Source: Pseudomonas putida (GTDB lineage: Bacteria > Pseudomonadota > Gammaproteobacteria > Pseudomonadales > Pseudomonadaceae). Taken from it: a stretch of DNA of 64,000 nt. The notes below the pieces were generated by a model, which saw nothing but the letters and a program-made list of their open reading frames with translations, did not search any database and was not told the origin of the DNA. Of the stretch, positions 13,160-14,503 are shown one piece after another. Every line of letters begins with the position of its first letter. Positions within the stretch are counted from its first letter, which is position 1. The position numbers and the translations under genes were made by a program. The stretch covers positions 124,001 to 188,000 of the forward strand of contig NZ_CP109603.1 of NCBI RefSeq assembly GCF_025905425.1. The letters are read 5' to 3'.

Positions 13160-13192
13160 GGGCTTTGCCCCGGTTCGCGGGGCTAGCCCGCT
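13160..13192. repeat. Left half of a REP pair interrupted by the IS110 element
   Basis: GGTTCGCGGGGCTAGCCCG then CT is a REP unit cut exactly at the CT dinucleotide (13191-13192). Its missing half resumes at 14434. A small GGGGC/GCCCC stem lies immediately before it. Confidence 0.85.
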
Positions 13193-13199
13193 TGTGTCT

Positions 13200-13380
13200 T
13201 GGAGAGGGAATAGAATCTGAAGTGAGAGCGGTGAATGGCAAGCTGATAGCCCGAGGTGCCCAGAGCACGTGTGGGAGCAAAAGCTGCCATTCACCGTTCC
13301 ACTTTGGCGAGAGCCCGAACAGTTGGATGAGGGGCGTAATCTCGAATCACAAGCGTGGGCCAAGCCAAAGCGCTCTCACT
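13200..13380 (+). ncRNA. Candidate bridge RNA of the IS110 element
   Basis: A perfect 9-bp closing stem (13222-13230 with 13371-13379) encloses two hairpins. Hairpin 1: stem 13231-13239 with 13286-13294; its loop holds TAGCCCG (13247-13253), identical to the left target flank 13184-13190, and TGTGGGAGC (13270-13278), complementary to the right target 14433-14441. Hairpin 2: stem 13302-13308 with 13364-13370; its loop holds ACAGTTG (13319-13325), identical to the element's right end 14427-14433, and CACAAGC (13348-13354), complementary to 13190-13196 at the left end. This order and strand pattern is that of IS110 bridge RNAs. The 5' boundary is a guess. Confidence 0.85.
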
Positions 13381-13404
13381 CCTTGAGTTTAAGAGGGTTT
13401 GGCC

Positions 13405-14340
13405 ATGTCTTCCTCTGTCGGCATCGATGTTTCCAGTGCCACACTTGCTGTTCACATCCGTCCTGAGGGGGTGAACTTCAGTGTTTCCAATGACTTGAAG
13501 GGATTCCAACTGCTCGTCGAAAAGCTTGGCGGGCATGCAATTTCAATGGTCTTGCTCGAAGCTACCGGTGGCTACGAGTGCAATGTCCTCAAAGCGCTGC
13601 AGGATGCCGATTTTCCGGTTTGCCGGATCAATCCCAGTCGTGCCCGGGACTTTGCCAAGTCGATGGGTAAACGCGCCAAGACCGATCCCATTGACGCAGC
13701 TGTTTTGGCTCACCTGGCTGAAGTTATGCCCCCACGGCCTTGCCAGGTGATGACACCCGAGCGGGCTTTGCTGCGCGAACTGCTTATGCAGCGGGATCGC
13801 TTCGTCCAACAGCGCGACGATGACAAGCGGCGCCTGAAGCAGGCGCGGGCTCCCAGTGTTTGTTTGCGGTTGGAACAACACATCGCCTATCTGAAGGGTG
13901 AAATTCGAGCGCTGGAACAAGAGATCGCACAGCAGGCAGCAGCTTTGCCTGATGATCGGGTTAAACAGCTCACTCAAGTCAAAGGAATTGGTCTGATTAC
14001 TGCCGGAAAGCTGATGGCCTTGCTGCCAGAGCTGGGCCAGGTGGATAAGAAGGAAATTGCCGCCTTGGTCGGTGTTGCGCCGTTCAACCAGGACAGCGGC
14101 AAGCAGTCGGGCAAGCGTTCAATCTGGGGGGGGCGCTCACAAGTCAGGCGGGCGCTCTATATGGCCTGCTGGGTGGTGATACGGCACAACAAGGACTTCT
14201 GCGAGCGCTACAAAGCACTGCGAGCCCAGGGGAAGTGCGCGAAAGTATCGGTGGTGGCGTGTATGCGAGTATTGATAGTGAGGCTAAATGCGATGCTCAA
14301 GACCGGAACGCCCTGGAAGGAGCAAATAGCTCATTCGTAG
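13405..14340 (+). CDS. IS110-family transposase (DEDD recombinase)
   Basis: 311 residues from ATG 13405, preceded by AGAGGG; a TTG two codons earlier is unlikely. The N-terminal DEDD RuvC-like domain begins SSVGIDVSSATLAVH (first Asp), with Glu in LLEATGGYE (near 55) and the Asp pair in KTDPIDAAVL (near 95). A predicted coiled stretch (about 130-185) links to the C-terminal Tnp_20 domain with GVAPFNQDSGKQSGKR, which holds the serine used by this family. It cuts and rejoins DNA at the CT core under guidance of the bridge RNA encoded just upstream. No frameshift or stop; it looks intact. Confidence 0.95.
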   Translation: MSSSVGIDVSSATLAVHIRPEGVNFSVSNDLKGFQLLVEKLGGHAISMVLLEATGGYECNVLKALQDADFPVCRINPSRARDFAKSMGKRAKTDPIDAAVLAHLAEVMPPRPCQVMTPERALLRELLMQRDRFVQQRDDDKRRLKQARAPSVCLRLEQHIAYLKGEIRALEQEIAQQAAALPDDRVKQLTQVKGIGLITAGKLMALLPELGQVDKKEIAALVGVAPFNQDSGKQSGKRSIWGGRSQVRRALYMACWVVIRHNKDFCERYKALRAQGKCAKVSVVACMRVLIVRLNAMLKTGTPWKEQIAHS

Positions 14341-14433
14341 GAGCAAGCCTTGCTGGCGATGCCCGGCACAGCCGGGCCTGGGGCGCTACGCGCCCCATCG
14401 CCGGCAAGGCCAGCTTCCACAAGAAGACAGTTG
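14341..14433. repeat. Branched palindrome in the IS110 right end
   Basis: An outer stem (14347-14361 with 14396-14410, one mismatch) encloses two perfect hairpins: CCCGGC-ACA-GCCGGG (14362-14376) and GGGGCGC-TAC-GCGCCCC (14380-14396). It starts directly after the transposase stop and ends 17 bases before the recombination point. It resembles a REP-like palindrome and may also end transposase transcription. Confidence 0.75.
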
Positions 14434-14503
14434 CTCCCACAGGTTCTCTGCTGAACCCAAGGGCAGCGGAAAATCTGTGGGAGCGGGCTTGCCCCGCGAA
14501 GAC
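14434..14503. repeat. Right half of the interrupted REP pair plus its inverted partner
   Basis: CTCCCACAGG (14434-14443) completes the REP half at 13160-13190; about 38 bases on, TGTGGGAGCGGGCTTGCCCC begins the inverted partner, ending CGCGAA. The restored pair lies between moaE and rhlB. Confidence 0.85.

Follow-up and report, generated by a model that had tools for sequence, protein, structure and literature searches.

The window analysed here, a 64,000-nt stretch of Pseudomonas putida contig NZ_CP109603.1 (positions 124,001 to 188,000; the host genome is 6.14 Mb in one contig), carries a complete insertion sequence (IS) of the IS110 family, 1,245 bp long, at window positions 13191-14435. 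With high confidence we assign this element to the IS110 group of RNA-guided recombinases, with a bridge RNA that targets repetitive extragenic palindromic (REP) sequences. Coordinates below are those of the window, on the forward strand unless stated otherwise; loci and genomes carry our own L and G numbers, and published work is cited from excerpts, by PubMed Central accession. The recombinase gene (tnp, 13405-14340) encodes 311 amino acids from an ATG start codon. Its product matches the Pfam domains DEDD_Tnp_IS110 and Transposase_20, and sequence comparison relates it to the solved recombinases of IS621 (E 1.6e-29) and ISCro4 (E 1.6e-31). Residues D8, E52, D94, D97 and S231 align with D11, E60, D102, D105 and S241 of IS621, which are given as catalytic in the excerpted text of PMC11208158. 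As in the IS110 group, a DEDD RuvC-like domain is joined to a C-terminal Transposase_20 domain with the catalytic serine, and the ends are asymmetric, with 212 nt (13193-13404) before tnp and 93 nt (14341-14433) after it. The closest named protein relatives are from P. putida and other Pseudomonas. A plasmid collection gave no DNA-level match to the element; the matches were to proteins only, all below 60% identity (2,271 records).

The element is bounded by a CT dinucleotide on each side (13191-13192 and 14434-14435). Inside these cores lie the left tip, TGTG (13193-13196, the right donor), and the right tip, ACAGTTG (14427-14433, the left donor); outside them lie the two halves of the target, TAGCCCG (13184-13190, half of a REP) and CCCACA (14436-14441). 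A REP-like palindromic segment, recognized by eye, lies within the right end (14341-14424); its stretch CAAGGCCAGCTTCCACA resembles the target REP and has CT at the same place.

The left end is predicted to encode a bridge RNA spanning 13222-13379, an extent taken from the fold and from a match to our covariance model R1 at 13219-13382 (the model itself includes this sequence). A 9-bp closing stem, formed by 13222-13230 and 13371-13379, encloses two internal loops; a letter-by-letter check bore out the first-pass annotation, made from the sequence alone, in that the two arms are perfect reverse complements. Within the target-binding loop, whose stem pairs 13231-13239 with 13286-13294, the left target guide TAGCCCG (13247-13253) is identical to 13184-13190. 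The identity proposed in that annotation stands, with one qualification: the left guide common to the copies of the element is 6 nt and not 7, because T at target position -7 occurs in only two of 27 copies. On the right side of this loop, TGTGGGAGC (13270-13278) is the reverse complement of 14433-14441, as proposed, and the match extends by one further base, TGTGGGAGCA pairing over 10 nt with 14432-14441. The right target guide is made up of TGTGGG, the core complement AG and a further CA (13270-13279).

The donor-binding loop, whose stem pairs 13302-13308 with 13364-13370, is built in the same way. Its left donor guide, ACAGTTG (13319-13325), is identical to the right tip at 14427-14433, and CACAAGC (13348-13354) is the reverse complement of 13190-13196; both had been noticed at first pass, the latter again one base short, since CACAAGCG matches 13189-13196 over 8 nt. 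The right donor guide thus comprises CACA, AG and a further CG (13348-13355). The extra bases of both right guides cross the CT core into the DNA of the other partner, which is the position at which the handshake guides of IS621 pair after strand exchange (PMC11208158, excerpt), so that complementarity of the handshake type is present in both loops of the window element. The layout is that of IS621-type bridge RNAs, with two internal loops, left guides that match the top strand and right guides that complement it around a CT core. Chance agreement was gauged from 20,000 shuffles of 13193-13404 that preserve dinucleotide composition: single guide words of 7, 8, 7 and 6 nt were found in 145, 263, 293 and 1,090 shuffles, respectively, and single 6-nt words in up to 9.6% of them. 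The four 6-nt guide cores in the correct order were found in none of the 20,000.

The genome contains 27 gap-free copies of the element that are 99.4-100% identical over 1,245 bp, and tnp lacks an internal stop in all of them. They carry two RNA variants (24 and three copies) that differ by one stem base. CT is found on both sides of every copy, AGCCCG lies to the left of 26 (AACCCG in the other) and CCCACA to the right of 26 (CCCACC in the other), and both words are present at 25. At these 25 sites, removal of the element restores exactly AGCCCG-CT-CCCACA, the word specified by the target guides. This 14-mer has 674 uninterrupted occurrences in the genome, compared with none for the reversed control. 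Target position -7 is free, the guide's T being present only in the window copy and in L034. We thus did not find identical guide loops at unrelated targets, an outcome that would have spoken against a guide role: all 27 copies lie at CT, and five or six of six guide letters fit on each side.

The GCGGG arm of the REP is present in 24 of the 27 left flanks; L032 has CGGGGG in its place, and no comparable sequence is present in L034 or L035. All three retain the left guide word. On the right, L032 and L035 have the complete word, and L034 matches it at five of six letters (CCCACC). L034 and L035 provide a within-genome hint that pairing, and not the REP hairpin, suffices. The insertion sites of L032 and L035 share a right flank (CCCACAAAACTTTTCGTACAGAGCCTA) and differ in their left flanks. 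The genome also holds two solo right ends, at G000:C1:1364753-1364813 (L036) and 4541445-4541562 (L037), each reading REP-like half, CT, TCCACAAGAAGACAGTTG, CT, CCCAC, with the left end absent; the genome-wide count of tips is 29 right and 27 left. The solo ends may be scars left where CT cores recombined or the DNA between them was deleted.

Whether guides and targets change together was examined in related elements. Within the window's genus, 39 of 398 genomes gave an R1 match (the window's own included, some matches being partial); at the level of the class, two of 369 genomes did so, and the window's own is again one of the two. R1 was run on part of the relative loci found, in 58 sources, and many further loci lie outside these. 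From the search, 53 hits were kept, L038, L072, L149, L159 and L160 being omitted as repeats of listed elements. Five of the 53 (L119, L154, L164, L157 and L158) yielded no guides or left tip; the remainder, together with the 26 other copies in the window's genome, gave 74 rows, 71 of them with six usable left-target letters. Among 110 R1 matches, the 50 on the opposite strand (20-38 bits) were put down to palindromic stems and ignored, and short matches of about 85-95 nt (G095, G357, G088 and others), many of them at contig ends, were not used.

For 15 left-guide types, a guide paired with its own target at 5.42 of six positions (G-U allowed), compared with 4.36 for the targets of other types, and none of 20,000 label permutations reached this value; with strict pairs the figures were 5.00 and 3.73, again with 0 of 20,000. 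Omission of doubtful loci left the result in place: 5.56 versus 4.32 for 13 types without L155 and L166, 5.38 versus 4.33 for 14 types without L165 (0 of 20,000 in each case), and still 0 of 20,000 without all three. In a wider set of 16 rows, selected by hand together with their anchors, left guides gave 5.15 versus 3.38 (13 types, 0 of 50,000 permutations); the values for right guides were 5.50 versus 3.07 (eight types, 16 of 50,000). Examples on the left are ATTCG at ATTCG, GCCAG at GCCAG, GCGCG at GCGCG and GCCCC at GCCCC, and on the right TGGGAG with CTCCCA, TAGGAG with CTCCTA and TAGGAAG with CTTCCTA. The covariation of guide loops with flanks that the first-pass annotation proposed to test in related elements is present on both target sides. 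Two candidate oddities in this material were set aside. The tandem left ends L038/L165 (P. putida W15Oct28) lie at a scaffold N join and are an assembly artefact; the left target of L165 starts directly after this join, yet it is counted among the 15 types. L152, considered as a solo bridge RNA without tnp, has a tnp region partly masked with N, and the gene is present on both sides of the mask.

Changes in both target guides are seen in the relatives that we call the G409 family, which we take to be Xanthomonadaceae because Rfam describes the RNA family sX15, discussed below, from there. These relatives have the same RNA scaffold, with TAACGC or TAACAC as the left guide and TAATTC or TAACTC as the right guide. 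In eight of the 11 loci with right ends read (L170, L171, L172, L173, L175, L184, L190 and L193), the sites of such guides read CTAACGC or CTAACAC, CT, GA[A/G]TTAAGCC, both target guides having changed to match. In the remaining three (L181, L182 and L188), CTCCTACA on the right fits the element's own right guide TAGGAG, and the left fits are poor. The joined flanks of L171 and L173 form a long hairpin bounded by (T/G)(T/C)CTAAC and GTTAGGC, which we take to be the form of an integron attC site; at the other six attC-like-site loci, the far hairpin arm does not lie within the 90 nt read. Judged from these sequences, the G409-family relatives represent an apparent natural reprogramming of both target guides to attC-like sites. 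Targeting of attC has been published for IS1111-type elements (PMC11187229, excerpt). On the donor side, a left tip TGTG goes with guide ACAAG and TATG with ATAAG; the latter pair is found in most G409-family relatives read, among which L177 has ACAAG and TGTG. The left donor tip ACAGTTG is invariant in every right end found.

The fold is also conserved. In an alignment (A1) of 15 left ends, from the window element and 14 Pseudomonas relatives, 39 pairs were standard-paired in 96.9% of cells and nine pairs had changed on both sides, so that the lack of a conserved fold among homologues, which would have counted against a bridge RNA, was not what we observed. None of 500 shuffles equalled the A1 values for paired cells or for both-sided changes, and slid versions of the fold were 26-46% paired; the conservation expected of an IS621-type bridge RNA was found by all but one of five measures. 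Most of the compensatory changes (five of nine) fall in the target-loop stem (helix 2, of 12 pairs when the inner part is counted), which is paired in 100% of cells. In the donor-loop stem (helix 4), two of seven pairs have changed on both sides and 91.4% of cells are paired. Six of the nine closing-stem pairs are invariant in A1, and in G409-family relatives one U-A pair of this stem reads C-G, as seen by eye.

Several steps of a working model can be carried over from IS621, namely the circle, its junction promoter, expression of the RNA, the RNA-recombinase complex, binding and strand exchange. The element would excise as a circle, and its joined ends would give a promoter, TTGCTT-17-TAGAAT, from which the left end is transcribed. 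When the end junction is written out it does read TTGCTT-17-TAGAAT: the TTG of the right tip would be half of the -35 element, and the -10-like TAGAAT, which we surveyed in relatives, lies at 13211-13216, 17 nt from the TTGCTT formed at the junction. A junction promoter has been described for IS621 (PMC11208158, excerpt). The bridge RNA would start near 13222 and fold into its two internal loops. Loop 1 would bind a REP, TAGCCCG pairing with the bottom strand to the left of CT and TGTGGGAG with the top strand over and to the right of CT, and loop 2 would bind the two ends of the element itself, brought together at CT. Top strands would then be swapped at the CT cores by the recombinase, after which two more RNA bases of each right guide (CA and CG) would fit the arriving DNA, as the IS621 handshake guides do. 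By analogy with IS621, we infer that the bridge RNA is functional.

A number of observations weigh against this interpretation. The handshake bases do not stay complementary throughout the relatives: target position -1 is C in L055 and L071, and this base cannot pair with the guide C. The guide types are related to each other, and the permutations treat these non-independent elements as independent. Some guides fit poorly: AATGCCCG at AGCCCC (L071) fits at four of six positions, L166 at four and L155 at five (both look degraded), and, with the anchor used, L188 fits at one of six and L182 at three. When the linear sequence was scanned for promoters, none scored above threshold. Regarding the fold, the reversed measure was the number of further standard pair types (14, compared with a shuffled mean of 16.4). 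The closing stem is untouched by the covariation test because none of its pairs has changed on both sides among the 15 sequences, and two of its pairs fail, one in five of the 13 sequences with letters there and one in three of 15. The innermost donor-stem pair fails in six of 15 sequences, and T13291C, present in three of the 27 copies, breaks one target-loop stem pair.

Three other explanations were weighed against the same evidence. The left-end structure might be solely a translational control element in the 5' untranslated region (UTR) of the tnp mRNA, the guide words being by-products of the end sequences. The closing stem ends 25 nt before the ATG, and in ISPpu9 a 5'-UTR structure and the antisense RNA Asr9 alter tnp translation (PMC8450116, excerpt). 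Control of this kind can coexist with a guide role; taken as the whole explanation, however, it leaves unexplained both the covariation of guides with targets and the switch of both target guides along with the target in the G409 family, and we regard it as very improbable. An explanation that we consider slightly more improbable still is that the protein recognizes REP hairpins and that the guide matches reflect evolution next to REPs. The REP arm in 24 of 27 left flanks is in keeping with this, but L034 and L035 lack the arm and retain guide-matched words, and related proteins with other guides are found at the matching ATTCG, GCCAG, GCGCG and attC-like targets.

Chance, in a GC-rich and palindrome-rich region, can supply single 6-nt words, as the shuffles described above indicate. 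It did not supply all four in order, and it would also have to account for the covariation and for the agreement among copies and relatives; we consider a chance origin of the four matches negligibly probable. The reading that best accommodates these results is thus that of an RNA-guided recombinase whose bridge RNA targets REPs.

The strand opposite the bridge RNA has features of its own. A full-length match to the Rfam family sX15 (RF02234), a possible anti-bridge RNA, covers 13216-13380 on the reverse strand (E 9.6e-6). At 45 bits it lies under the Rfam gathering score of 55 bits, and a stricter genome search returned no sX15 match for this genome. In G409, R1 (54 bits) and sX15 (120 bits, above threshold) match the same stretch on opposite strands. 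Across the G409 family, sX15 was found in 17 of 149 genomes at 27 loci (L167-L193), 25 of them over the cut-off. An IS110 tnp accompanies 19 of these loci, always on the strand opposite sX15, and the tnp match starts 20-32 nt from the RNA in 17 of the 19; L186 and L176 share one tnp, so that there are 18 genes for 19 loci. Eight loci are without an IS110 tnp match, and five of these stop at contig ends. L178 and L179 (G828 and G881) have an sX15-like RNA without an IS110 tnp match, in the same flanks in two 5.2-Mb genomes; this RNA is a candidate relic or domesticated bridge RNA.

sX15 was reportedly first seen as an expressed small RNA (sRNA) in Xanthomonas. It appears in a table of PMC6337395; the excerpts of PMC3771888 speak of 24 sRNAs and do not name sX15, nor is it mentioned in those of the bridge-RNA paper PMC11208160. 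In ISPpu9, the stable RNA Asr9 is transcribed antisense to the 5'-UTR of tnp and increases both translation of tnp and transposition (PMC8450116, excerpt). Asr9 may cover the putative bridge RNA of ISPpu9. An antisense -10-like hexamer, TAAACT, lies at 13386-13391 on the reverse strand. Minus-strand TANNNT occurs 1-7 nt past the RNA in 19 of 24 element clusters, against a background of 0.023 per window and of 0.086 in shuffled flanks; plus-strand TANNNT precedes the RNA, likewise in 19 of 24 (background 0.004 per window). The hexamer windows were picked after viewing the same sequences, and the clusters are related. The downstream hexamer overlaps the ribosome-binding site, and translation may explain part of its conservation.

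These observations raise the possibility that transcription enters the bridge-RNA module from either end. We tentatively propose, while holding it somewhat more doubtful than probable, that in this clade of IS110 elements a conserved promoter immediately upstream of tnp routinely yields a stable RNA antisense to the element's own bridge RNA; that sX15 and Asr9 are such anti-bridge RNAs; and that the sense-antisense balance in a 160-bp module with facing promoters sets the amount of free guide, tnp translation and targeting. If true, this proposal would explain an Rfam sRNA family and tie older sRNA work on ISPpu9 to RNA-guided recombination. The orphan ssr9 units of ISPpu9, situated between A and B boxes (PMC8450116, excerpt), would fit small non-autonomous elements, with a second bridge RNA between donor ends.

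The 27 near-identical copies, the 674 unoccupied perfect target words and the attC-switched relatives together make a clean natural test set for the rules of bridge-RNA targeting, serving questions such as how many guide bases count and which mismatches are tolerated. The kind of element is already known, from IS621 and ISPpu10, and the window element is an unusually well-supported further example. Published accounts of ISPpu9 and ISPpu10 inserting into REPs go back to 2006 or earlier (PMC1525189, excerpt), and IS110 bridge RNAs were described in 2024 (PMC11208160, excerpt). For ISPpu10, an IS110 element of P. putida KT2440, all seven copies were located in REPs and had a 2-bp repeat (PMC1525189), and Extended Data Fig. 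10 of PMC11208160 shows for this element a predicted bridge RNA with left and right target guides (LTG, RTG) and left and right donor guides (LDG, RDG). By these descriptions it is, like the window element, a REP-inserting IS110 with a predicted bridge RNA, and it is probably the nearest named element.

ISPpu9, from the same strain and with Asr9 and Ssr9, is also described as inserting into REPs, and differs in its longer UTR (244 nt) and an extra ssr9 unit. The seekRNAs of IS1111/IS110 elements are a further instance of RNA-guided targeting by DEDD elements, including attC-targeting IS1111 and REP-targeting ISPa11, although the RNA of IS1111 derives from the region downstream of tnp and its guide order is reversed (PMC11187229, excerpt). 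IS621 of Escherichia coli shares with the window element the CT core, the guide RNA upstream of tnp, the strand rules of the loops, the catalytic residues and REP targets (PMC11208160 and PMC11208158, excerpts). Its recombinase is only a distant relative, and IS621 has a separate 5' stem-loop, a structure not seen in the fold and alignment within the predicted extent of the window RNA, in which the 9-bp stem instead encloses both loops.
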